This document shows, one piece after another, positions 27,276 through 40,871 of a DNA stretch of 64,000 bases. The number at the start of each line of letters is the position of its first letter. The stretch's first letter is position 1. A model generated the notes under the pieces. That model was not told the origin of the DNA. It did no database searches and worked only from the letters and a program-made list of their open reading frames with translations. This DNA comes from Mesorhizobium sp. ZC-5. Lineage in GTDB: Bacteria; Pseudomonadota; Alphaproteobacteria; Rhizobiales; Rhizobiaceae. The DNA is taken from assembly GCF_025753855.1 (NCBI RefSeq), contig NZ_JAOWPT010000002.1:496001-560000 (forward strand). Reading direction: 5' to 3'. The translations under genes were made by a program, and so were the position numbers.

Positions 27276-27644
27276 ATGTCGCGCAAGCAAACCTTCGGAG
27301 CCTCCCATGTGCCGCTGTCGCCGGCGGTGCGGGCTGGCGACTTCGTCTACGTTTCCGGCCAGGTGCCGGTGCGCGATGGTTCCGTGGTGGACGGCGGGAT
27401 CGAGCCGCAGACTAGGCAGGTGCTCGACAATGTGAAGGCGGCACTGGCATTGGCGGGCGCGACCATGGAGGATGTGGTCAAGACCACGGTGTGGATCGAG
27501 GATGCGCGCGATTTCGGCGGCATGAACAAGGTCTATGCGACCTACTTCCCGAAGGAGCCGCCCGCGCGCACCACGGTGGAATCCCGGCTGATGATCGACA
27601 TCAAGGTCGAGATCGAGGCGGTTGCCTACGCACCGCAGAAATAA
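27276..27644 (+). CDS. RidA-family protein (second copy in the window)
   Basis: A 122-residue RidA-family protein with FVYVSGQVPVRDG near the N-terminus and the expected ATMEDVVKTTVWIED and PARTTVESRLMIDIKVEIEAVAY segments. The C-terminal arginine and glutamate used for imine hydrolysis in archetypal RidA are in the right region. The ATG has CGGAGC upstream. It is 19 bp from the M81 gene and probably clears enamines formed by the PLP enzyme of the divergent operon. Confidence 0.87.
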   Translation: MSRKQTFGASHVPLSPAVRAGDFVYVSGQVPVRDGSVVDGGIEPQTRQVLDNVKAALALAGATMEDVVKTTVWIEDARDFGGMNKVYATYFPKEPPARTTVESRLMIDIKVEIEAVAYAPQK

Positions 27645-27663
27645 GCCAAGGCCACGCCGCATC

Positions 27664-29133
27664 ATGCGCATCTTCACAGCCTCGCTGGCGACGGAAACCA
27701 ATACGTTCTCGCCGGTGCCCACCGACCGCGCCTCGTTCGAGATGGCCTTCTATGCCACTCCGGGCAAGCACCCGGAAACGCCGACGCTGTGCTCGTCGCC
27801 AATGGTCGCCCTGCGCCGGCGCGCGGCGGAAGGATTGACGGTGATCGAGGGCACGGCCACCTGGGCCGAGCCCGGTGGCCTCGTCCAGCGCAAGGCCTAC
27901 GAAGACCTGCGCGACGAAATTCTCGGCCAGCTTTCCGCCGCGCTGCCGGTCGACGCGGTGATCCTCGGCCTGCACGGCGCCATGGTGGCGCAAGGCTATG
28001 ACGATTGCGAAGGCGATCTCCTGTCGCGCGTCCGGGAAGTCGTCGGGCCTGATGTCGTCGTCGCCTCGGAACTCGACCCGCACAGCCATTTGACGGCGAA
28101 GCGGGTCGCGGCGGCGGACATCCTGGCCGCGTTCCTCGAATTCCCGCATACCGATTTCTACGAGCGCGGCGAGCATGTGGTCGAACTCGGACTCGCCGCG
28201 GCGCGCGGCGACATAAGGCCGGTGATCTCGACCTTCGACTGCCGGATGATCGCCGTGCTGCCGACCAGCCGCGAGCCGATGCGGTCGTTCGTCGACCGGC
28301 TGAAGGCATTGCAAGGCAAGGACGGCGTGCTCTCGGTTTCGGTCATACACGGTTTCATGGCGGCCGACGTGCCGGAGATGGGTACGAGGATCATCGTCGT
28401 CACCGACAACGATCGGGCCAAGGGCGATGCGCTGGCCGAAAGGCTCGGTATGGAGCTTTTTGCCATGCGCGAAAAGACCGTGATGACGATGGTCAACGCC
28501 GACGACGGCATCGACCGGGCTTTCGCGGTGCGCAAGGCCGATCCGGCAAAACCGGCGGTCATCGCCGATGTCTGGGACAATCCGGGCGGCGGCGTTCCAG
28601 GCGACGGCACCTTCGTCCTGAAGAAGCTGATCGAACGCGGCCACGGCAGAATTGGCGTTGCCACCATCTGGGACCCGATCGCCGTGACCTTCTGTCATGC
28701 GGCAGGCGAAGGCGCCACGATCCAATTGCGTTTCGGCGGCAAGGCCGGACCGCAGGCCGGCGAGCCGGTCGATGCGAAAGTGCGGGTGCTGAAGGCCGTC
28801 GCGGAAGGCTGGCAGAGTTTTGGGCCGAGCCGGGTGACACTCGGCGCGACGGCGCTGATCCATATCGAGGGCACCGAGATCGACGTCATCCTCAACACCA
28901 ACCGGACGCAGACCTTCGAGCCGGACATCTTCTCCAATCTCGGCATCGACCCGCTGTCGAAAGATATCCTGCTGGTCAAGTCGACCAATCATTTCTACGC
29001 CGGCTTCCAGCCGATCGCGGCGGAGATCATCTATGTGAATGCGCCTAGTTCTTATCCGAGCGACCCGCGCACCACGAACTACACCAAGCTCGACCGGCCG
29101 ATCTGGCCGCGTGTCGAGAACCCGTTCGCCTGA
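27664..29133 (+). CDS. M81-family metallopeptidase (MlrC/microcystinase C-like)
   Basis: A 489-residue M81 protein. The N-terminal domain opens with RIFTASLATETNTFSP and carries metal-binding ELDPHSHLT and FPHTDFYERG. The conserved VWDNPGGGVPGDGTF segment lies near residue 305. The family is named after MlrC, which hydrolyses linear microcystin peptides, but most members occur in amino-acid or hydantoin catabolic clusters and act on unknown amides. Pairing with RidA, a D-threonine-aldolase-like enzyme and an RpiR regulator suggests a small unusual amino acid or peptide as substrate. Confidence 0.86.
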   Translation: MRIFTASLATETNTFSPVPTDRASFEMAFYATPGKHPETPTLCSSPMVALRRRAAEGLTVIEGTATWAEPGGLVQRKAYEDLRDEILGQLSAALPVDAVILGLHGAMVAQGYDDCEGDLLSRVREVVGPDVVVASELDPHSHLTAKRVAAADILAAFLEFPHTDFYERGEHVVELGLAAARGDIRPVISTFDCRMIAVLPTSREPMRSFVDRLKALQGKDGVLSVSVIHGFMAADVPEMGTRIIVVTDNDRAKGDALAERLGMELFAMREKTVMTMVNADDGIDRAFAVRKADPAKPAVIADVWDNPGGGVPGDGTFVLKKLIERGHGRIGVATIWDPIAVTFCHAAGEGATIQLRFGGKAGPQAGEPVDAKVRVLKAVAEGWQSFGPSRVTLGATALIHIEGTEIDVILNTNRTQTFEPDIFSNLGIDPLSKDILLVKSTNHFYAGFQPIAAEIIYVNAPSSYPSDPRTTNYTKLDRPIWPRVENPFA

Positions 29134-29302
29134 ACCGCGGCTTCCACCGCAGGCTGCACCAATCGAAAACGCCCGCCGCGGCTTGCCATGACGCGCCGTT
29201 TCGTTCAGAAATTCGCCATGTATTGCCGAGATTAGCGGATTTCGGCGAAAGAATCAGCGGTAACTGGCGAATTGGCCCTGCCGCCACCGGAAAGACCTGA
29301 AA

Positions 29303-30703
29303 ATGTCCTCGATAGAAGCCGGCGTGAGGGCGCCGGAAAGCCTCTGGCGCGGCGAGATTCGCGCGATGCTTGCGCTCTCCTGGCCTATGGTTCTGACCAA
29401 TCTCGCCCAGGTGGCGATGACCGCGACCGACGTCATGATGATCGGGCGGCTGGGCGCCGACATGCTTGCGGCCGGCGCACTCGGCTCTAACCTCTATTTC
29501 GCACCGTTGATCCTCGGGCTCGGCCTGGTCTATGCCGCCTCGCCGATGATGGCGACCGAACTTGGCCGCAGGCGCCATTCGGTGCGCGACATCAGGCGCA
29601 CGGTCCGGCAGGGTCTGTGGCTGGCGATCCTCGGCGCCATTCCGATCTGGATCATCCTGTGGAATGGCGAAGCCATTCTGCTGGCGATGGGGCAGGAGCC
29701 GGCGCTGGCGGAACAGGCCGGCATCTACCTGCGCTGGCTGCAATGGGCGATCCTGCCTTTCTACGGCTACATCGTCCTGCGCTCGTTCATCTCGGCACTG
29801 GAGCGGCCGGGCTGGGCGCTGGTCATCATGTTCATTGCGGTCGCCTTCAATGCGCTCGGCAACTGGCTGCTCATCTTCGGCAATTTGGGCTTTCCCAAGA
29901 TGGGCATCGCCGGCTCGGGTCTGGCGACAAGCCTCTCCAGCGCCTTCATGTTCGGCGGCCTTGCCATGGTCGTCTCGTTCGAGCGGCAGTTCCGCCGCTA
30001 CCATCTGTTCGGGCGTTTCTGGCGCTCCGATTGGCCGCGCTTTGCAGTAATGCTGAGGCTCGGCCTGCCGATCGCTGGCATTCTGGCCTTTGAGGTGACC
30101 ATCTTCAACGCGGCGGCATTCCTGATGGGACTGATCAATTCGGCGTCGCTGGCGGCGCACGCCATCGCCATCCAGATCGCGTCGGTCACCTTCATGGTGC
30201 CGCTCGGCATCAACCAGGCGGTCACCGTGCGGGTCGGCCTGGCCTACGGCGCGAGGAATCCGGACGGCATCAGCCGCGCCGGCTGGACCGCCTACGCGAT
30301 CGGGGTCGGCTTCATGGCGCTGATGGCGCTGGTGATGCTTTTGTGGCCGCGCGTGCTGATCGGCGCCTTCATCAACCTCGACGATCCGGCCAACACGGTG
30401 GTGATCGGGCTGGCTGTCACCTTCCTGTCCTTCGCCGCGCTGTTCCAGATATTCGACGGCGCGCAGGCGGTGGCCGCCGGTATGCTGCGCGGGCTGCACG
30501 ACACCAAGGTGCCGATGATCCTGGCTGCGATCGGCTACTGGGGCGTCGGCCTGCCGCTCGGCGTGCTGCTCGCCTTCCATTTCGGCTTCGAAGGCAACGG
30601 CATCTGGATTGGCCTTTCCTCCGGTCTCGCGGTGGTGGCGGTGCTGCTGCTGGTGCGCTGGTTGCGCCGCGACCAGCTCGGATTGACCACCGATAGGCTC
30701 TAG
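29303..30703 (+). CDS. MATE-family multidrug/metabolite efflux transporter
   Basis: A 466-residue membrane protein with about twelve hydrophobic segments in two MatE halves. Landmarks are [21 protein letters not shown] in the first half and [17 protein letters not shown] in the second. It is a probable cation-coupled exporter of the inner membrane. It stands alone after a 169-bp gap in which I see no gene, and is followed by a hairpin before the ureohydrolase. Substrate unknown. Confidence 0.9.
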
Positions 30704-30795: not shown

Positions 30796-31746
30796 ATGAC
30801 GCGTGTGCATCCGGGCGATCAGGCGTTCGACTACGACTCGCTGATGGGAACCGAGACGGAGATGCCGTTTTCGGGCACCCGCAGCTTCATGCGGCGGCGG
30901 CTGACGCGTGATCTCGCCGGTGTCGACTATGCCGTCATGGGCATCCCCTACGATCTCTCGACCTCGGGGCGCCCCGGCACGCGCCTGGGTCCGGAGGCGC
31001 TGCGGCGGGCGACCACGCAACTGTCGTGGGGCGAAGTCTGGCCCTGGGGGTTCGACCCGTTCGACCGGCTGGCGGTGGTGGATTATGGCGATGTCTTCTA
31101 CCAGCGCGGCCAGCCGCAGGAGATGCTGGAGAACGCCTATCACCAGGCGCTGCATGTGCTGAAATCCGGAAGCCGGCTGATCGGACTCGGCGGCGACCAC
31201 CTGACGACCTACCCGCTTCTGAAGGCGCATGCTGAGGTGCAAGGGCCGCTGGCGCTGATCCAGTTCGACGCGCATCGCGACACCGCGAAATCGGGTTTCC
31301 TCGACCATGGCTCCTTTGTCCGCTTCGCTATGAATGAACGGCTGATCGATCCGGCGAAATCGATCCAGATCGGCATCCGCACGCATTACGACCTCGACGA
31401 CCCGATCACCGTGCTGCACCGGCCCTGGGTTCGCGACAACGGCGTCAAGGCGCTGGTCGCCGAGATCGAGCGGGTAACCGACGGCATGCCGTGCTACCTC
31501 ACCTTCGACATCGACAGCATCGATCCTGCCTTTGCACCGGGCACCGGCACACCGGTGGTCGACGGGCTGTTGCCGCACGAGGCGATAGACACGATCCGCG
31601 CGCTGACGAAACCGAACATCGTCGGCATGGATGTCGTCGAGGTGTCGCCGCCCTACGACCCGACCGAGATCACTGCGCTGCTCGGCGCCTCGGTGATCCT
31701 CGAACATCTGTGCGCGCAGGCCTCCGTCCTGCCGGCGAAGAGCTGA
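30796..31746 (+). CDS. Agmatinase/guanidino-acid ureohydrolase
   Basis: A 316-residue manganese ureohydrolase with all metal-binding motifs: GLGGDHLTTY, QFDAHRDT and TFDIDSIDPAFAPGTGT. It removes urea from a guanidino substrate such as agmatine, guanidinobutyrate or guanidinopropionate; the motifs do not separate these. It lies 3 bp before a PLP racemase-like gene whose C-terminus is a degenerate member of this same superfamily. A second ureohydrolase occurs at 39810. A guanidinobutyrase role fits the adjacent D-arginine-dehydrogenase-like gene. Confidence 0.88.
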   Translation: MTRVHPGDQAFDYDSLMGTETEMPFSGTRSFMRRRLTRDLAGVDYAVMGIPYDLSTSGRPGTRLGPEALRRATTQLSWGEVWPWGFDPFDRLAVVDYGDVFYQRGQPQEMLENAYHQALHVLKSGSRLIGLGGDHLTTYPLLKAHAEVQGPLALIQFDAHRDTAKSGFLDHGSFVRFAMNERLIDPAKSIQIGIRTHYDLDDPITVLHRPWVRDNGVKALVAEIERVTDGMPCYLTFDIDSIDPAFAPGTGTPVVDGLLPHEAIDTIRALTKPNIVGMDVVEVSPPYDPTEITALLGASVILEHLCAQASVLPAKS

Positions 31747-31749
31747 AAA

Positions 31750-33486
31750 ATGCCGGCGCCTTCCGTCATCATCGACCTGGATATCATCGCCGAAAACACG
31801 CGGCGCGTGGCCGACACGCTGAAGCCGCAGGGTATCGGCATGTTCGGCGTCACCAAGGCGGCCTGCGGCTCGCCGCTGGTGGCGCGCGCCATGCTGCGCG
31901 GCGGCGTCTTCGGCCTGGCGGATTCGCGGCTCGACAATGTCCGGCGCCTGCGCCATGCGGGCATCTCGGCGCCGATCATGATGCTGCGCATCCCGTCCGT
32001 CACCGAGGCGCCGGACGTGGTGCGGCACTGCGATCTCAGCCTGAATTCCGAAGCCGCGGTGCTCGACGCCTTGGCGGAGGCCGCGCAGGAGCAGGGTGTC
32101 GTCCACGACGTCATCCTGATGCTCGAAATGGGCGACCGCCGCGAAGGCGTCTCGCCGGAAGATTTGATCCCGCTCGCTCAGACGGCGATGGCCGAGCCGT
32201 CGCTGCGCCTTGCCGGCATCGGCGCCAACTTCATGTGTGCCAGCGGCGTCCTGCCGACGGTAGAGAAGCTCGAGCGGCTGGCGCGGCTCGCCGACGATGT
32301 CGAGCAGCGTTTCGGTACCAGGCTCGACTATGTCTCCGGCGGCAATTCGGCCAACCTTGCGTTGATGGAAACCGAAGGCGTGAAGATGCCGGCGCGCATC
32401 AACAATCTGCGCATCGGCTCGACTATCCTGCGCGGCGAGAACAGCTTCACCGGAGGCACGTTGCCCGGCTATGACGACGGCGCCTTCACGCTGGAGGCCG
32501 AACTGGTCGAGATGAAGACCAAGCAGTCCCTGCCGGACGGCGAAACCGGCCCCGACGCCTTCGGCAATCGACTGACCTTCAAGGACCGCGGCGCCCGATT
32601 GCGCGGCATCGTCAATCTCGGCCGTGTCGATATCCGGCCGGAAGGGCTGAAAGCACGGCATCGCAACATCGAGATCGTCACCGCCTCCAGCGACCATCTG
32701 ATCGTCGACATCACCGAGGCGAAGAAATTCGCGGTCGGCGACCCGATCCGCTTCGAGATGGATTACGGCGCGCTGGTGCAGGCGATGCTGTCGCCCTATA
32801 TCGAAAAGCACCTCGCCGGCCGCGAGAACATCGCGCCGCGGCCGAGTGCGATCCGGCTGATCGCCGATGCTTCGGTGCATGACCTGGAGGAGACGCGCCA
32901 GTTCCTGCTCGGCGCGACCGCGCTCGGCTTCGAGATCAAGCGCGACGGCGCGCCGGAACCTGCCGACCTGCCGCTGTGGATCATTCCGGGACGCAACGGC
33001 ATCCACGAATTGATTGCCACCGCCGATGTCGAAGCGGTCGAGTCCGGGCTGCTCTGGATGGACTCCGATCCCGGCGACATCGGTGCCGTGGTCACGCCGG
33101 AGGCTGCCGCTCTGCTTGGCATCCGCACCGCCACCAGGGAGCAGGCGGCGATCATCGGCGAGCGCGACATCGTGGCTTTCACCATGGAGGATGTCGATCT
33201 GGTCGGCATCCGCGAAGCGACGCGACGCGCCATCAAGCGCGTCACCGAGACGACCGACGGTTTCGCGCTGGTGCTGCATGCGTCGGTGGCTCGCGGCATG
33301 GATGCCGATCCGCGCGAGGCTGGATTGAGCTACCGCGAATGCTCGACGGTGATGGAGCGAGTGGCCGCCAGCGAGGAACTGCGCGCCATCGTTCTGGCGG
33401 GGCTCGGCGCCGAGCCGGACCCGGCCGCGCTGGAATCCGCCTATGGCTATCTGCTCAGCGCGCTGGGCAAGCGGATTCTGGCGTAG
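31750..33486 (+). CDS. Ornithine-racemase-type PLP enzyme fused to a degenerate arginase domain
   Basis: A 578-residue two-part protein. Residues 1 to about 350 match the alanine/ornithine racemase (fold III) family: PLP lysine K36 in GVTKAACG, then GLADSRLDN, GDRREG, YVSGGNSANL and NNLRIGSTILRGE. Residues about 380-578 align with arginases. The segment from E460 to I473, FTMEDVDLVGI, matches arginase FSMxEVDRLGI, and AGLSYREC matches GGLTYREG. Metal sites are lost: GGDHS became PGRNG (413-417), the Asp-His pair became D438-S-D440, and FDVD became LHAS (509-512). It probably racemises a basic amino acid, with the pseudo-arginase part as a binding or regulatory domain. The gap to the upstream ureohydrolase is 3 bp. 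Confidence 0.8.
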   Translation: MPAPSVIIDLDIIAENTRRVADTLKPQGIGMFGVTKAACGSPLVARAMLRGGVFGLADSRLDNVRRLRHAGISAPIMMLRIPSVTEAPDVVRHCDLSLNSEAAVLDALAEAAQEQGVVHDVILMLEMGDRREGVSPEDLIPLAQTAMAEPSLRLAGIGANFMCASGVLPTVEKLERLARLADDVEQRFGTRLDYVSGGNSANLALMETEGVKMPARINNLRIGSTILRGENSFTGGTLPGYDDGAFTLEAELVEMKTKQSLPDGETGPDAFGNRLTFKDRGARLRGIVNLGRVDIRPEGLKARHRNIEIVTASSDHLIVDITEAKKFAVGDPIRFEMDYGALVQAMLSPYIEKHLAGRENIAPRPSAIRLIADASVHDLEETRQFLLGATALGFEIKRDGAPEPADLPLWIIPGRNGIHELIATADVEAVESGLLWMDSDPGDIGAVVTPEAAALLGIRTATREQAAIIGERDIVAFTMEDVDLVGIREATRRAIKRVTETTDGFALVLHASVARGMDADPREAGLSYRECSTVMERVAASEELRAIVLAGLGAEPDPAALESAYGYLLSALGKRILA

Positions 33487-33548: not shown

Positions 33549-34676
33549 GTGGCTGAAGCGGTCGACGTTGCTGTCATCGGTGGTGGCATCGCCGGCATCT
33601 CGCTGGCCTATTTCCTCTCCCCGCATCGTTCCGTCACCGTGCTCGAGCGCGAGACTGCGCTCGGCTACCATTCGAGCGGGCGCTCGGCGGCGGAGTTTGC
33701 ATTCCGCTTCCACTCGGCGATTGTCGGCAGACTGGCGAAGGTCAGCTATCCGTTTCTCACCAATCCGCCGGCGGGGTTCACCGAAACCGAGCTTTTGAAA
33801 CGCCGCGGCAATCTGTTGATCGCCGATGCCGAAAAGGCGGAACGGTTGGCGCAGGTGTTCGCCGAGGAAGGTGCTGCCGGGCCCGGGCTCGAACGGCTGA
33901 CGGTCGACCAGGCGATCGAACGGGCACCAATCCTAAATCCTGCGTATGTCGTCGACGCCTTCTACGATCCGGATTGCTGGGACATCGAGGCGGAGAACCT
34001 GTTGCAAGGCTGCGCAAAAGGGGCGCGCGGCAACGAGGCGACGATCGTCAACAAGGCGGAAGTGCTGGCGGCGCGTCGCGAGGTGGACGTCTGGATACTC
34101 GAAACGACGGCCGGCGAGGTCAGGGCGAAAACGGTGGTCAACGCCGCCGGCGCCTGGGCCGACAGGACCGCCACGCTGTTTGGCCTGAAGCCGCTTGGCA
34201 TCGTGCCCTACCGGCGCACCGCGATCACCGTCGATTTGCCGGCCGGCATCGATGTCGGCGCGCTGCCGGAAATCTGCGAGATCGACGAGGTGTTTTACAT
34301 GAAGCCGGAGGCCGGCCGGCTGCTGGTGTCACCCGCCGACGCTACCGAGAGCGAGCCCTGCGACGCGCAGCCGGAAGAACTCGATATCGCTTACGCCGCC
34401 TGGTACCTCGAACAGGCGACGACGGTCGCCGTCAGCCATGTCGCGCACCGCTGGGCTGGACTGCGCACCTTCGCCAGCGACCGGGTGCCGGTGGTCGGCT
34501 ATTCCGGCGAGAAAGAAGGCTTCTTCTGGCTCGCCGGACAGGGTGGCTTCGGCATCCAGACCGCGCCGGCAATGGGACGGCTCGCGGCCGATCTGGTGCT
34601 CGGCAATACACTTGCAGCGGATTTCGGCGAGCAGGGGCTGACCGCGGCGATGTTTGCGCCAGGAAGGTTTGAGTAG
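33549..34676 (+). CDS. D-arginine-dehydrogenase-like (DauA-type) FAD oxidoreductase
   Basis: A 375-residue flavoprotein of the D-amino-acid oxidase family. The dinucleotide loop is VIGGGIAGISLAYFLS, then GYHSSGRSAAEF, FYDPDCWDIEAENL, FYMKPEAGRLLVSPAD and FFWLAGQGGFGIQT. These segments closely resemble those I recall in Pseudomonas DauA, which oxidises D-arginine and D-lysine to the 2-oxo acid. A GTG start at 33549 with GGGGGAG upstream is used. Being directly after a racemase-type enzyme, it could consume the D-isomer that enzyme makes. Substrate remains inference. Confidence 0.85.
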   Translation: MAEAVDVAVIGGGIAGISLAYFLSPHRSVTVLERETALGYHSSGRSAAEFAFRFHSAIVGRLAKVSYPFLTNPPAGFTETELLKRRGNLLIADAEKAERLAQVFAEEGAAGPGLERLTVDQAIERAPILNPAYVVDAFYDPDCWDIEAENLLQGCAKGARGNEATIVNKAEVLAARREVDVWILETTAGEVRAKTVVNAAGAWADRTATLFGLKPLGIVPYRRTAITVDLPAGIDVGALPEICEIDEVFYMKPEAGRLLVSPADATESEPCDAQPEELDIAYAAWYLEQATTVAVSHVAHRWAGLRTFASDRVPVVGYSGEKEGFFWLAGQGGFGIQTAPAMGRLAADLVLGNTLAADFGEQGLTAAMFAPGRFE

Positions 34677-34978: not shown

Positions 34979-35752
34979 CTAAACCCGCAAATCGGCCAGG
35001 TAGGTGTTCTCCGCCGCCGATGCAGCGAAATCGTCCGGCTTGAGGTCGGCGAACAGCAGTTCCTCGCCGGTTTCGCTGGCTTCTGCAAGCATAGAACCAT
35101 CGGGGGCGGCTATGCCGGTGAGGCCGGCATAGGCAAAGCGCCTGTCGGCGCCGCAGTGGTTCACATAGGCGACGAAGATCTGGTTCTCGAAGGCGCGCAC
35201 CGCGATGAGCTTGCGGGCGATCAGCGCTGCGTGGTCACTCGCCGGCAGCGCTGTCGGCACCAGTACGGCTTGCGCGCCAGCAAGGGCGAGGCGGCGGACA
35301 TTTTCCGGGAACTCGACATCGTAGCAGATCAGCATGCCGAGCTTGATGCCGCGGAATTCGACGATGCCGGCGGAAGGTTTTTCCGGCGTGAAGAGGTCGC
35401 GCTCGTAGGGGCCGTAGAGATGCGATTTGCGGTAGACTTCCAGCACGCCGCGCCGGTCGACCAGCATGGCGCTGTTGTAGACGGTGTCGCCATCGCGCTC
35501 GGCGAAACCCGCGATGACCGCGACGCCGGTTTCCAGCGAAACGCCGTGCAGCCGCGTCGCGATCTCGCCGTCGGGTTTCTCGGCAAGCTCTTTGATGACG
35601 TCGCCGGCCCCATAACCGGTGACCGCCAGTTCCGGCGTCACCAAGAGGTCGGCATCTTGTTTGCCGGCTTCGCGCATGGCCTGCTCGATGCGGGCGAGGT
35701 TGGCGGCGGTATCGCCCGGCATCGCCTGCATCTGGAGAACAGCGAGCTTCAT
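34979..35752 (-). CDS. Nitrilase-superfamily carbon-nitrogen hydrolase (amidase)
   Basis: A 257-residue amidase with the full catalytic triad: E41 in TPELAVTGY, K109 in YRKSHLYGPYE and C143 in LICYDVEFPE. The family includes N-carbamoylputrescine amidase, omega-amidase and R-stereoselective amidases. Being the last gene of a polyamine-type importer operon with a ureohydrolase at its head, it may hydrolyse an amide such as N-carbamoylputrescine or 4-guanidinobutyramide. Its ATG overlaps the permease stop by one base. Confidence 0.87.
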   Translation of the reverse strand: MKLAVLQMQAMPGDTAANLARIEQAMREAGKQDADLLVTPELAVTGYGAGDVIKELAEKPDGEIATRLHGVSLETGVAVIAGFAERDGDTVYNSAMLVDRRGVLEVYRKSHLYGPYERDLFTPEKPSAGIVEFRGIKLGMLICYDVEFPENVRRLALAGAQAVLVPTALPASDHAALIARKLIAVRAFENQIFVAYVNHCGADRRFAYAGLTGIAAPDGSMLAEASETGEELLFADLKPDDFAASAAENTYLADLRV

Positions 35753-36555
35753 CAGTTGGAATCCGAGGACATGGCGCCGAGCAGCCGCCTGATGTCGCCG
35801 AACCGCGCGATCAGTCCGAACACCAGTGCCGCGATGGCGACAAAGAACACGGACACCGACGCCATGGTGGGCGTGTAGCCGTAGCGCAGCGCATTGAATA
35901 TCTTGATCGGCAGCGTTTCCATGGTGAACCCGACGGTCATGTAAGCGACGATATATTCGTTGAGCGACAGAACGAAGGCGAAGGCATATCCCGAGACGAG
36001 ATAGGGCAGGATGAGGGGCAGCACCACGGTCTTGAGCACCGTGCGGTCGTCGGCACCCATGGTCGAAGCCGCCTCGACCAGCGAGCGGTCGATGGAAGCG
36101 AAGCCGAGCGACAGCGTCACCAGTGGCAGCGTGACGAAGAAGATGGCGTGGCTGATCGCCGCCGTCCACGGCTGGCCGTAGAAACCGGCATTGGCCCAGA
36201 AGGTGAGGAAGCCGAGCGCGGTGATGACCGGCGGCAGGATGAACGGCGCGACGCCGAGCAGCTGGAAGATGTTGGCCCATGGAGCGATGCGCCGCCACAG
36301 GAACCAGGCCAGCGGCAGCGCGATCGCCACGGCGATGGCGGCGGCGCTCAAGGCAAGCAGGATCGAGGCGACTAGCGCCTTGCGCCATTCCGGATTGACG
36401 AAGATCTCGGCGTACCAGTCGAGCGAAAAGCCTTTCGGCGGGAAGGCGAGGTCCTGCTTCTCGTTGACCGAGACGCCGGCCACCACGATCAGCGGCGCGG
36501 CGAGGAACAGTCCGACAAGGAAGAAATAGAAACGGCGCAGCAATCGTTCGGTCAT
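35752..36555 (-). CDS. Spermidine/putrescine-type ABC transporter permease (PotC family)
   Basis: A 267-residue permease with six hydrophobic segments. The EAA loop reads EAASTMGADDRTVLKTVVLP, followed by LILPYLVSGYAFAFVLSLNE as in PotC/PotI proteins. The start overlaps the neighbouring permease stop by 4 bp, and its stop overlaps the amidase start. It forms the channel with the next gene product; the imported cation could be a polyamine, agmatine or guanidinobutyrate. Confidence 0.88.
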   Translation of the reverse strand: MTERLLRRFYFFLVGLFLAAPLIVVAGVSVNEKQDLAFPPKGFSLDWYAEIFVNPEWRKALVASILLALSAAAIAVAIALPLAWFLWRRIAPWANIFQLLGVAPFILPPVITALGFLTFWANAGFYGQPWTAAISHAIFFVTLPLVTLSLGFASIDRSLVEAASTMGADDRTVLKTVVLPLILPYLVSGYAFAFVLSLNEYIVAYMTVGFTMETLPIKIFNALRYGYTPTMASVSVFFVAIAALVFGLIARFGDIRRLLGAMSSDSN

Positions 36556-37406
36556 CCCGCGTTCTCCCTGCGTCCGACCAGCAGCGTCAGGCCGACCAGC
36601 GCCAGCGACATCAGCACCAGGAACACCGCCATCGCCGCCGCGAACGGGATGTTCGACTGGTAGATAGCCTGGTCGGTGATCAGCACCGATAGCGTCCAGT
36701 GCTGCGGTCGCCCGAGGATCTGCGGCAGGAGGTAGGAACCCAGCGCGAAGACGAACACCATGATCAGCGTCGCCACAATGGTGTTGCGCAGCGCCGGCAC
36801 GACGACATTGAGGAAGGCGCGGATGGGCGAGGCGCCGAGCGTGCGCGCCGCTTCGAGCAAGGTCGGATCGAGGCGCACGAGCGCCGGGTAGAGCACCAGG
36901 ATGGTATAGGGCAGCGCCTGGTAGACCATGCCGGTGAGCACGGCGCCGAAACCGGGCAGCAGCGCCTGGGGCTCGGTCATCAGGCCAAGCCAGACAAAGA
37001 GGTTGGTGATGCCGGCGGTGCGCGAGAACAGCGTCGACCAGGCGAAGCCGATGATGACTTCCGACAACGACAGCACGGACAGGAGGCAGACCAGCCAGAC
37101 GGTCTGCACCTTCCGCGACTGCTTGGTCAGGAGATAGGTGAACGGAAAGGCGATGGCGACGCAGCAAAGCGCGACGATGATGGCGAGCATCAGCGAAAAG
37201 CCGAGCACGTTGCCGAAGAACAGCGAGAGGAAGCGCGCATAATTGTCGACGACGAAGTCCGGCTTGAAGAAGCCGGCCGGATCGCGCCTGAAGAACGAGA
37301 CCATGATCATCGTCGAGAACGGGATGACGAAGAACACGGTCAGCATCAGCGCCGGAAATACCAGCGGCGTGTAATCGGCGAGCGACCGCGGCGGCTCCCG
37401 TCTCAT
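36552..37406 (-). CDS. Spermidine/putrescine-type ABC transporter permease (PotB family)
   Basis: A 284-residue permease. The EAA loop is EAARTLGASPIRAFLNVVVP and the preceding PYTILVLYPALVRLDPTLL is PotB-like. Six hydrophobic segments are seen. The stop and start overlap both neighbours by 4 bp (ATGA), placing it in the same translational unit as the ATPase upstream and the PotC-type permease downstream. Confidence 0.88.
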   Translation of the reverse strand: MRREPPRSLADYTPLVFPALMLTVFFVIPFSTMIMVSFFRRDPAGFFKPDFVVDNYARFLSLFFGNVLGFSLMLAIIVALCCVAIAFPFTYLLTKQSRKVQTVWLVCLLSVLSLSEVIIGFAWSTLFSRTAGITNLFVWLGLMTEPQALLPGFGAVLTGMVYQALPYTILVLYPALVRLDPTLLEAARTLGASPIRAFLNVVVPALRNTIVATLIMVFVFALGSYLLPQILGRPQHWTLSVLITDQAIYQSNIPFAAAMAVFLVLMSLALVGLTLLVGRRENAG

Positions 37407-38440
37407 AGGGCAAGCACCACGCAGCTTTCGGGCGGCAGCACGACGCCGACTTTCTGGCCCTGCTTGACGTTGGGCCGTTCGCGCGGCGTCGCCACCGAGA
37501 CAATGTTGGCGCCGCCGGCTTCGACGAAGGTTTCGATGGTGCCGCCGAGATCGCGCACGAAGATGACGGTGCCGTCGATGGCGTCCTTGCCCGGTTTGTC
37601 GAGATGCACGTCCTCGGGGCGGATCGACAGCGAGGCCTTGCCGACGCCGCCCGGCAGCTTGAGGCCGGCGATGGCCTGTCCGAGCACGATGGCGCGGCCG
37701 GCACTGTCGGCCGTGACCTCGAGCAGGTTGGTCGAGCCGATGAAATCGGCGACGAAGGCATCGGCCGGCCTGCGGTAGATCTCGATCGGCGGAGCGGCCT
37801 GGCGGATCTTGCCATTGCCCATGACGACGACGAGGTCGGCCATGGTCATTGCCTCGCGCTGGTCGTGGGTGACGACGATGGTGGTGATGCCGAGTTTCTG
37901 CTGCAGTTGCCTGAGTTCGACCTGCATCGCCTCGCGCAGCTTGGCATCGAGCGCCGACAGCGGCTCGTCAAGCAGGAAGAGTTTCGGCGAGATGGCGAGA
38001 GCGCGGGCAATCGCCACACGCTGCCGCTGGCCGCCGGACAGTTTTGCCACCGGCCGGTCGGCATAACCGGAGAGGTGGATGAGGGTGAGCAGTTCCTCGG
38101 TGCGCTTGTTCTGTTCGTTGCGCGAAGCGCCGCGAATGCGCAGCGGATAGGAAATGTTGTCGCCGACAGAAAGATGCGGGAACAGCGCCAACGACTGGAA
38201 CACCATGCCGAGATCGCGCTTGTGGGTAGGGACCGCCGTGATGTCCTTCCCGTCGAGCACGACGGCGCCGGCGGTCGGTTCCTCCAGCCCGGCGATCATC
38301 CGGAGCAGCGTGGTCTTGCCGCAGCCGGACGGACCAAGCAGGCAGACAAAAGTGCCATGCGGCACGTCGAGGCGCACATCGTCGACGGCGGTGAAGTCGC
38401 CGAACTGCTTGGTGATGTCGTTCAGGGAGAGGCCAGACAT
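37403..38440 (-). CDS. Spermidine/putrescine-type ABC transporter ATP-binding protein (PotA family)
   Basis: A 345-residue ABC ATPase. Walker A is GPSGCGKTT, the signature LSGGQRQRVAIARAL and Walker B LFLLDEPLSALD. A C-terminal TOBE-like extension (residues about 245-345, LSIRPEDVHLDKPG) is characteristic of PotA/FbpC-type motors. It starts about 213 bp after the binding-protein gene, with a palindromic element in between. Confidence 0.9.
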   Translation of the reverse strand: MSGLSLNDITKQFGDFTAVDDVRLDVPHGTFVCLLGPSGCGKTTLLRMIAGLEEPTAGAVVLDGKDITAVPTHKRDLGMVFQSLALFPHLSVGDNISYPLRIRGASRNEQNKRTEELLTLIHLSGYADRPVAKLSGGQRQRVAIARALAISPKLFLLDEPLSALDAKLREAMQVELRQLQQKLGITTIVVTHDQREAMTMADLVVVMGNGKIRQAAPPIEIYRRPADAFVADFIGSTNLLEVTADSAGRAIVLGQAIAGLKLPGGVGKASLSIRPEDVHLDKPGKDAIDGTVIFVRDLGGTIETFVEAGGANIVSVATPRERPNVKQGQKVGVVLPPESCVVLAL

Positions 38441-38520
38441 GCGTGTTGCCCTACTCTGCGATTATCCAACACGGTAATGGGAAGGCGAAGCGATTGCCAT
38501 CTCGGTCTTTTCTTAGCAAA

Positions 38521-38642
38521 GGGAGAAGATGCCGCCCTTCGACCGGCTCAGGAGGCAGACGAGGGGCAGCGAAATCCCTGGGGTTAACATTCCCCCTCAT
38601 CCGGCCCTTCGGGCCACCTTCTCCCCGCGACCGGGGAGAAGG
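38521..38642. repeat. Palindromic element between binding-protein and ATPase genes
   Basis: The clearest part is CCTTCTCCCC...GGGGAGAAGG at 38617-38642, a hairpin with CCTTCTCCCC arms, preceded by GGCCCTTCGGGCC (38603-38615). A partial, diverged counterpart GGGAGAAGATG lies at 38521. It belongs to the same family as the element at 205-336 and occupies the equivalent place, between a highly expressed binding protein and its transporter genes. Confidence 0.65.
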
Positions 38643-38653
38643 TAAGAAAAGCA

Positions 38654-39742
38654 TCAGCTGACGATCAGCTCGGTCCACTTCTGGTTGATCCAGTCGGCCT
38701 TGGTCGTATAGAGATCGTAGCGCGGGATGATCGGCTCGATCTCCGACGCCACCGCCGCGAACTCTTCCGGCGTCAGGTCGAGCACGTCCTTCTTCAGCGT
38801 CGGCGCGGTGCCGACCTTGCGCGACATCAAGCCCTGGATCGCCGGCTGGCTCATGTAGTCGATGAACACATGCGCTTCGTCGACCTTTTTCGAGGCGCGC
38901 GACAGCACCCAGTTGCCCGAATCCTGGATGCCGCCTTCCTTCGGGAAGGTCGAGCGAACCGGATGGCCGTCTGCGGCGGCAAGGCCGGTGACGTCGTGGT
39001 AATACTGGCCCATCGGGATTTCACCGGATTTCAGCGCCTGTTCGAACTGCGCCTCGTCGCGGTACCACAGCCGCACGTTCGGCTTGACCTCGGCAAGCTT
39101 GGTAAACGCCTTCTCCAGCCCCTCGTCTGTGTCGAGCGCATTGGTGCCGCCCATGAAGGTTTTGGCCGTCACTTCAAGCAGGAAGGAGTTCGAGGCGAGC
39201 GCCAGCAGCCCAAGCTTGTCGGCATTGGCCGGTTCCCAGAGCGCCGCCCACGAGGTCGGCGCTTCCTTGAACACGTCGGTGTTGCTGACCAGCGTGATGT
39301 ACCAGGCCACCGCGCCAATACCGGCGACGCGGCCGTCCTGGTATTTGTTGATGAAGTGCGGCAGCAGGCTGTCGTAGTTCTTGATCTTGGCCGGATCGAT
39401 CGGCGTCCACAATTCGGTCGATTGGCCCTTCAGCGTCGAGGTCTGCGACATCATCGAGACATCCGCCGGCGCCTGGCCGGCCTTTGCCGCCTGCTCGAGC
39501 TGCACCAGCCAGGCTTCGCCGGTCGGCTCGGCGACGGATTCGACGGCGATGCCGCTCGCCTTGGTGAATTCCGGGAAGATGTTCTTGTCGAAACTGTCCT
39601 TGAAGTAGCCGCCATAGACGCCGACCTTCAGCGACTTGTCCTGCGCGCGAAGCACGGCAGGCATTGCCAGCACGCCGGCGGCAGCGAGACCGGTGCCGAG
39701 CACCGCGCGGCGTGTCAGATTGCGATCCAGAAACTTGCTCAT
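38654..39742 (-). CDS. Extracellular solute-binding protein (PotD/PotF-type), Tat-exported
   Basis: A 362-residue binding protein of the polyamine-type family 1 group. The N-terminus has a twin-arginine signal (NLTRRAVLGTGLAAAGVLAM, cleavage near AVLRAQ). The mature start is KSLKVGVYGGYFKDSFDKN. Start 39742 is chosen for its GAGGAGTACTGAG leader. Ligand is unknown; the operon context suggests a cationic guanidino compound or polyamine. Confidence 0.87.
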   Translation of the reverse strand: MSKFLDRNLTRRAVLGTGLAAAGVLAMPAVLRAQDKSLKVGVYGGYFKDSFDKNIFPEFTKASGIAVESVAEPTGEAWLVQLEQAAKAGQAPADVSMMSQTSTLKGQSTELWTPIDPAKIKNYDSLLPHFINKYQDGRVAGIGAVAWYITLVSNTDVFKEAPTSWAALWEPANADKLGLLALASNSFLLEVTAKTFMGGTNALDTDEGLEKAFTKLAEVKPNVRLWYRDEAQFEQALKSGEIPMGQYYHDVTGLAAADGHPVRSTFPKEGGIQDSGNWVLSRASKKVDEAHVFIDYMSQPAIQGLMSRKVGTAPTLKKDVLDLTPEEFAAVASEIEPIIPRYDLYTTKADWINQKWTELIVS

Positions 39743-39809
39743 CTCAGTACTCCTCTTGTGAAGCCGGATTCCCGGCATGTTCCCGTCTTGTTGTCGACTT
39801 TATTCCCGC

Positions 39810-40871
39810 TCAGCCCTTCCGGCCAGTGACGAAGGGGCTGAAAACCATCAGGCTCAGAATCTCGAACAGCACCTGTGCGCCGGCATGCGCGGTGTTGGTG
39901 GTGGAATCGTATTGCGGCGCCACTTCGACGACATCGCCGCCGACCAGGTTGACGCCCTTCAGGCCTCTGATGATTTCGAGCACTTCCCGCGTGGTCAGGC
40001 CGCCGACTTCCGGCGTGCCGGTACCGGGTGCGAAGGCCGGGTCGAGGCTGTCGACGTCGAAGGACAGGTAGGTCGGCCCGTCGCCGACGATCTTCTTCGC
40101 CCGCTCGATGACGGCCGGGATGCCAAGCCCCGGAACCTCCTCGGCGTGGATGACTGTCATGCCGGATTCGTAGGTGAACTCCCACAGATATTCGGCCGAG
40201 CCGCGGATGCCGATCTGGATGGTGCGCGTCGGGTCGAGCACGCCGTCGAGCACAGCGTTGCGGAACGGCCCGCCGTGATGGAACTTGGTCTGGTCGAAGG
40301 CGCCGCCGGTGTCGCAATGCGCATCGATGTGGATCAAGCCGACCGGGCCGTTCTTGCCGACCGCCTTGAGGATGGGATGGGTGATCGAATGGTCGCCGCC
40401 GACCGAGAGCGGCACCACGCCGGCATCGACGATCTGGTTGATGCGGCGCTCGATGTCGTCATGGCTGAGTTCCAGCCGGTAGCGGCTCTGGAACGATACG
40501 TCGCCGATATCGGCGACCCGCAGGTCCTGCACCGGCGCGCAGTCCAGCACGTGGTTGTAGGGGCCGATGCGCTCGATGGTGCGCAATGCGCGCGGGCCGA
40601 AACGCGAGCCCGGCCGGTTGGTGACGCCGAGATCCATTGGTACGCCGACCATCGCCACCTGCAGGTCCCCGAAATCCGGCGTGTCGTTGTCGACGGGGAG
40701 GTACGGCGCGGTGAGGAAGGTCGGAATGCCGGAATAGGGCGCCAGCCGGGTACCGCTTTCGGAGAATATCTTGTCGGCGACGCGCCGGAATTGAGGATTG
40801 AACAGCTCGCCGCCGTGGCTCTCGCCGTACTTCTTCTGCAACGCGTCGAGCTTGCTGCGATCCCATGCCAT
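39810..40871 (-). CDS. Agmatinase-family ureohydrolase (second copy)
   Basis: A 353-residue ureohydrolase with intact metal motifs SVGGDHSITHP, HIDAHCDT and SFDVDSLDPAFAPGTGT. It has a longer N-terminus (about 75 residues before the conserved core) than the copy at 30796, as seen in guanidinobutyrase and guanidinopropionase. ATG 40871 follows AGGAGGAATTT. It heads the minus-strand operon with the PotD-type binding protein and is divergent from a LysR gene, so import and urea release from the same compound is the likely theme. Confidence 0.88.
   Translation of the reverse strand: MAWDRSKLDALQKKYGESHGGELFNPQFRRVADKIFSESGTRLAPYSGIPTFLTAPYLPVDNDTPDFGDLQVAMVGVPMDLGVTNRPGSRFGPRALRTIERIGPYNHVLDCAPVQDLRVADIGDVSFQSRYRLELSHDDIERRINQIVDAGVVPLSVGGDHSITHPILKAVGKNGPVGLIHIDAHCDTGGAFDQTKFHHGGPFRNAVLDGVLDPTRTIQIGIRGSAEYLWEFTYESGMTVIHAEEVPGLGIPAVIERAKKIVGDGPTYLSFDVDSLDPAFAPGTGTPEVGGLTTREVLEIIRGLKGVNLVGGDVVEVAPQYDSTTNTAHAGAQVLFEILSLMVFSPFVTGRKG

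Follow-up and report, generated by a model that had tools for sequence, protein, structure and literature searches.

The window analysed here, a 64,000-nucleotide stretch from Mesorhizobium sp. ZC-5, carries a gene in which a PLP-type racemase domain and a degenerate arginase domain share one reading frame (Table 1). The start codon of this fusion lies 3 bp past the stop codon of an intact ureohydrolase gene. Between that gene and the RidA-like gene further upstream are an MlrC-like M81-family gene and a MATE transporter gene (27622-30703, + strand); a MATE homologue (70-72%) is also found upstream of the fusion in L034 and L035, the loci of the nearest relatives. Downstream on the other strand (34979-40871, -) are a CN-hydrolase, ABC transporter genes and a second agmatinase-type ureohydrolase, which perhaps mark a wider guanidino/polyamine region; among the ABC genes the solute-binding protein was scanned and the others were named by eye.

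Table 1. Features of the racemase/pseudo-arginase locus (window coordinates)
Feature	Position	Strand	Basis
RidA-like protein, possible imine deaminase	27276..27644	+	named by eye
Intact agmatinase-type ureohydrolase directly upstream of the fusion; probable pathway partner	30796..31746	+	
Racemase/pseudo-arginase fusion gene, 578 aa	31750..33486	+	open reading frame and relatives
Orr-type PLP racemase domain, residues 1-355	31750..32814	+	
K36 codon, presumed PLP lysine	31855..31857	+	role inferred from family
Pseudo-arginase domain, residues 366-577	32845..33480	+	profile comparisons and predicted fold
PGRNG replacing arginase GGDHS	32986..33000	+	alignment with arginases
DSD replacing arginase DAH; first D is the sole metal ligand kept	33061..33069	+	alignment
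D483 codon (human ARG1 D204 position), kept oligomer-contact residue	33196..33198	+	25 of 25 fusions
LHAS replacing arginase DxD motif (such as FDVD)	33274..33285	+	alignment
R529-E530 codons (human ARG1 R255-E256 positions), kept oligomer-contact residues	33334..33339	+	25 of 25 fusions
FAD-dependent DAO-family oxidoreductase, 62 bp downstream; candidate D-amino-acid dehydrogenase	33549..34676	+	

A preliminary description of this DNA had read the N-terminal part as a racemase-type PLP domain, and profile comparisons bear this out. The domain matches Ala_racemase_N (E 3.9e-31) and covers positions 2-350 of the 351 in the Orr model (NF040742), which stops where the tail starts. Its score of 346.1 bits falls below the curated Orr cut-off of 480, as do those of six other fusions scanned (324 to 437 bits). 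K36 is invariant in 28 aligned fusions, and the domain has the alanine-racemase fold with its presumed PLP lysine; the VIA-align matches of the full-length structural model were alanine racemases and other proteins of that fold. Because that list is no test of the tail, the latter was folded alone. Some related fusions are found in ornithine-degradation operons, and the N-domain is likely a racemase of arginine or ornithine. In the two plasmid records that carry annotation, the fusion is labelled only 'alanine racemase'.

The C-terminal part alone barely reaches the Pfam arginase cut-off (22.3 versus 22 bits). Profiles built from relatives gave much clearer matches: arginase 1CEV was reached at E 3.2e-14 by a profile of seven rows and at E 9e-40 by one of 28 rows built on the full protein, and a profile-profile comparison of the tail with six arginases gave 98.9%. 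When folded alone by structure prediction, the tail adopted the arginase, or ureohydrolase, fold (PF00491/RocF). These profile matches and the predicted fold rule out a chance resemblance, and the arginase homology proposed at the outset thus holds. The tail shares with RocF-type arginase (TIGR01229, PF00491) its predicted fold, sequence homology and oligomer-contact positions, but its metal and substrate residues are gone and the domain is cut to about 210 residues, part of the arginase N-terminal half having been lost to a varying degree by lineage.

The preliminary description had also suggested a profile search for the fusion across genomes, and this revealed that racemase/pseudo-arginase fusions are a family that extends beyond one genome. 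In a pattern search of genome contigs, 120 of 207 matches were relatives and 80 were retained; both parts lie in one frame in 78 of these 80 scanned loci, the frames of the other two starting at a contig end. The racemase part of L050 is in frame over only some of its length. Within the family to which the window belongs, at least 15 of 298 genomes encode the fusion in one frame, one further genome has the halves on two contigs, and the two other genomes of the same genus in this 298-genome sample gave no match. At the level of the class, at least 8 of 289 genomes matched at E 1e-70, the sole fusion among them being the window's own; the family and class counts are lower bounds from whole-genome searches that scored the first few candidates per genome. 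All four genomes searched from the order of L052, a Zymogenaceae metagenome-assembled genome, contain the fusion. In the class of L054, one of eight genomes matched, namely L054's own. A plasmid search with the L052 fusion matched 347 records, the best 12 of which include three known Shinella-type fusions. A 684-aa arginase frame in L134, considered as a further fusion, reads by eye as an open upstream frame. In Vibrio lentus and Phaeobacter (L159 4992-6128 and L160 5001-6122), solo 'alanine/ornithine racemase' genes carried on plasmids directly follow a DUF1611 gene, a separate pairing.

To follow the fate of the arginase active site, we aligned 25 fusions (that of the window, those of L124, L125 and L033, and 21 more drawn for diversity from the 80 scanned loci) with nine stand-alone arginases and five other ureohydrolases; this set underlies the ligand table, the retention count and the arginase tree. 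The metal site of the window tail had been described as dead, and the comparison agrees: relative to the nine arginases, D124 is the only one of the six metal ligands still present and the four substrate residues are all missing, with PGRNG, DSD and LHAS standing in place of the arginase motifs. The tail thus lacks both the six-ligand binuclear manganese site and the arginine-binding and proton-shuttle residues N130, S137, H141 and E277, whose numbering and roles we take to be those of mammalian arginase. Judged by these residues, it would have lost the ability to bind the metal cluster and to recognise arginine via an arginase pocket. Across the family the loss is graded. All six metal ligands remain only in L052; L125 has five, L041 and L124 have four, L054 has two, and the remaining fusions have one or two. 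The D124 column, an active-site column, is retained in 24 of the 25. The substrate positions have fared worse, with N130, S137 and H141 lost in all 25 fusions and E277 in 24, the exception being L107. Because N130, S137 and H141 are absent even where six ligands persist, the loss of substrate recognition may have preceded that of the metal site, and the L052 tail may be no working arginase despite its intact metal site. A Trypanosoma brucei arginase-like protein, cited in PMC8503589 and PMC11271267, reportedly evolved without a manganese cluster, to go by the title of the study; it is not known to be fused to a PLP enzyme.

We placed the same 25 fusions in a tree with 15 solo racemases (40 rows; solo sequences of 353-378 aa as cut for the tree). 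The fusions and the solo racemase L126 form one group (96/92), a topology that fits a single fusion event and one later loss of the tail. L126 (L153:5974-7092, - strand; G346) is a solo Orr-type racemase that lies inside the fusion group next to L054, a fusion that has itself lost most arginase ligands. Since L126 is without the whole tail, the tail is dispensable in one lineage. It had been left open whether the tail might be a normal extension of such racemases; its absence from the 15 solo relatives dismisses this. On the racemase tree L052 is nested among relatives with a damaged metal site, so the site was damaged several times if it was never regained. In the arginase tree (39 rows) the fusions form one group, with weak support (83/57), near the nine stand-alone arginases; L137, a divergent ureohydrolase, attaches at that unresolved point too. 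Both window ureohydrolases are set apart with L138 and L139 (100/100). The tail therefore does not derive as a copy of the ureohydrolase upstream, and the gene-level relation that their adjacency had suggested falls away: the tail groups with stand-alone arginases and its neighbour with other ureohydrolases. From its position on the tree, this neighbour is more likely a pathway partner than the parent of the tail.

The surroundings of related fusions point to a pathway. L-Arginine can be degraded via D-arginine, 2-ketoarginine and guanidinobutyrate to GABA by the DauA and guanidinobutyrase routes. In Shinella, the fusion and RidA close a series of genes that runs from an agmatinase-like ureohydrolase (about 7 kb upstream of the fusion) through 5-guanidino-2-oxopentanoate decarboxylase, aldehyde dehydrogenase, biotin carboxylase and C45 peptidase to D-amino-acid dehydrogenase. 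Most genes of this cluster are also present in L036 and L037, from the window's wider clade; L036, like Shinella, has the decarboxylase, aldehyde dehydrogenase, RidA and ureohydrolase with the dehydrogenase. The gene sets of Shinella, L036 and L037 fit the route from L-arginine to GABA. We also counted homologues in a large alphaproteobacterial set of 70 loci, only some of which were placed in the tree (the 80 loci minus six window-clade loci, L041, L052, L054 and L107). The Shinella D-amino-acid dehydrogenase has a homologue in 64 of the 70, the biotin carboxylase and the C45 peptidase in 11 each, the ureohydrolase in at least two and the decarboxylase in at least one, the last two counts being lower bounds because only about 5.6 kb upstream was covered at most loci. 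Ureohydrolase homologues occur in four of the six window-clade loci. Annotated biotin carboxylase and C45 peptidase genes travel with the arginine cluster in L031 (5195-7672) and L033 (5214-7691).

The D-amino-acid dehydrogenase and the ketoarginine decarboxylase both stand beside the fusion in Shinella, L036, L037 and L055. Of these two kinds of gene, only a DAO-family one adjoins the fusion in the window, and the other homologues are far away: the best matches in the window genome to the ketoarginine decarboxylase (49%) and the Shinella dehydrogenase (43%) lie far off on the contig. The window DAO-family protein has a 53% homologue near the fusion in L038 and is only marginally similar to the Shinella dehydrogenase (41% over 51 aa), and the window ureohydrolase has 70-77% homologues upstream of the fusion in L038 and L039. 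The nearest relatives, L034 and L035, have no ureohydrolase or DAO neighbours within the stretch examined, and the genes scanned in L155 are unrelated (NAPRTase, a periplasmic binding protein and a LysR regulator); the small clade to which the window belongs thus shows no conserved context. The window RidA-like protein shows 34% identity over 76 aa to the annotated RidA that adjoins the Shinella fusion. According to PMC5619798, Rid2 and Rid3 proteins deaminate in vitro the iminoarginine made by DauA, and RidA and Rid1 subfamily proteins do not act on it.

Other lineages have different neighbours. In L151, from the order of L052, the genes grouped around the fusion encode OrtB, OraS (D-ornithine aminomutase alpha), OraE and an accessory protein of Or-4-like type, which scores 553 bits where the cut-off is 600; L152 and L154 show an order of gene lengths resembling that of L151, where the ornithine genes were scanned. 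In one Roseovarius, Ord and OrtB are beside the fusion. Given these ornithine-gene neighbours, the substrate in L151 and that Roseovarius should be ornithine.

We measured selection on the two parts of the protein in the window sequence and those of 76 of the 80 loci (77 in all); of 1044 close pairs, 1030 were used and the 14 whose dS fell out of range were dropped. Purifying selection acts on the tail: over 30 disjoint pairs its median dN/dS is 0.084 and that of the racemase part 0.051, and over the 1030 overlapping pairs the medians are 0.095 and 0.085; tail values exceeded 1 in six of the 1030. Pairs that include the window gave tail values of about 0.24-0.27 against L034 and L035 and of 0.43-0.45 against L036 and L037 (dS 0.8-0.9); across the wider clade of the window, the tail seems less tightly constrained.

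Fourteen positions are invariant in 28 tail sequences. Among 90 columns invariant in the nine arginases, 11 are kept in all 25 fusions; these include the positions of D204, R255 and E256 and none of the nine active-site columns. Glu256 and Asp204 are reportedly oligomer residues of arginase, being named as such in the title of a 2020 study by Lobos et al. that PMC11271267 cites, and R255 is presumably an oligomer-contact residue as well. The enrichment of contact positions, a post hoc comparison, has a P value of 0.0014, or of 0.0044 when the background is limited to the 62 columns at and after L129 position 125. D204 is absent from all five other ureohydrolases aligned and so is not required by the fold. 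R255 and E256 are weaker evidence, since the former is found in three and the latter in all five of these enzymes.

Taken together, we consider it rather probable that the fusion is a PLP-dependent basic-amino-acid racemase, most likely acting on arginine here and on ornithine in other lineages, that carries a pseudo-arginase oligomerisation scaffold of single origin. An Orr-type racemase and an arginase would have been joined once, after which the arginase part would have shed its catalytic residues while its fold and subunit-contact residues stayed, so that the tail would now serve as a scaffold. In the window genome, where we infer both substrate and pathway, the racemase would convert L-arginine to D-arginine, an FAD-dependent D-amino-acid dehydrogenase, assisted by a Rid protein, would yield iminoarginine/2-ketoarginine, and ureohydrolases would take on the guanidino products.

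Oligomerisation appears the best of several options for the tail. The preliminary description had suggested a sensor or specificity domain, and a tail that tunes the racemase allosterically on binding a ligand such as arginine or ornithine would fit the purifying selection and the location of the host enzyme beside arginine- or ornithine-pathway genes. With the arginine-binding residues gone, even from the metal-intact L052, the chief argument for a sensor falls away, and no active-site column is among the 11 kept in every fusion. Sensing through the arginase pocket is thus not sustained; a new, non-canonical ligand pocket in the tail is possible, and we regard an allosteric sensor of any kind as unlikely. 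Docking deserves comparison with a known case: MetCb, a metal-free subunit of metformin hydrolase, binds its active partner MetCa and is needed by it, as described in PMC11271267. Like the tail, MetCb is a pseudo-ureohydrolase, but there it is a separate subunit rather than being fused to a racemase. The tail could similarly form hetero-oligomers with the intact ureohydrolase or the dehydrogenase and pass intermediates between them, and the ureohydrolase directly upstream in the window, with homologues likewise placed in L038 and L039, would suit this arrangement. Such a partnership seems improbable, however, as ureohydrolase homologues accompany most window-clade loci but were counted in few of the large alphaproteobacterial set (at least 2 of 70), and the upstream enzyme comes from another ureohydrolase branch.

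The tail might also be a slowly decaying relic with no role beyond not harming the racemase, as the uneven loss of metal ligands, substrate residues and part of the N-terminal half among lineages, and its complete absence from L126, would allow. Median tail dN/dS values not far above those of the racemase part, and the 14 invariant positions, make this very unlikely. Starting from a scaffold, we can offer a broader and more tentative proposal, possible rather than probable: PLP enzymes of basic amino acids may have captured arginase domains repeatedly and made them assembly modules, shedding catalysis and recognition and keeping the D204/R255/E256 trimer contacts. A dimeric racemase joined to a trimeric pseudo-arginase would then build a larger particle that couples racemisation to partner enzymes, and the Zymogenaceae fusion, with its intact metal site, would be a living intermediate.

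The closest known parallel is the ODC/arginase (Oda) of Fusobacterium, a PLP enzyme with a conserved dead arginase domain (PMC8503589, PMC12826042). Both proteins combine a basic-amino-acid PLP enzyme with a C-terminal arginase-like domain that has lost its metal ligands, but the PLP part of Oda is described as an AAT-fold decarboxylase, whereas the N-domain here is of the alanine-racemase type. Because the PLP folds differ, the racemase version arose independently; ODC/arginase fusions are stated in PMC8503589 to be confined to the Fusobacteriaceae. The preliminary description knew of no protein with the racemase/pseudo-arginase architecture, and we likewise found no description of one among the titles and abstract openings returned by our searches of the open-licence PMC literature.

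The fusion points to a probable arginine racemase gene for the D-arginine/2-ketoarginine route. It also represents a second, independent family that bears on why a dead arginase domain is kept, which a passage of PMC12826042 poses as an open question for ODC/arginase. The family offers metal sites graded from intact to lost, one lineage that lacks the tail and a few defined residues as targets for mutation, and the scaffold idea is therefore directly testable.
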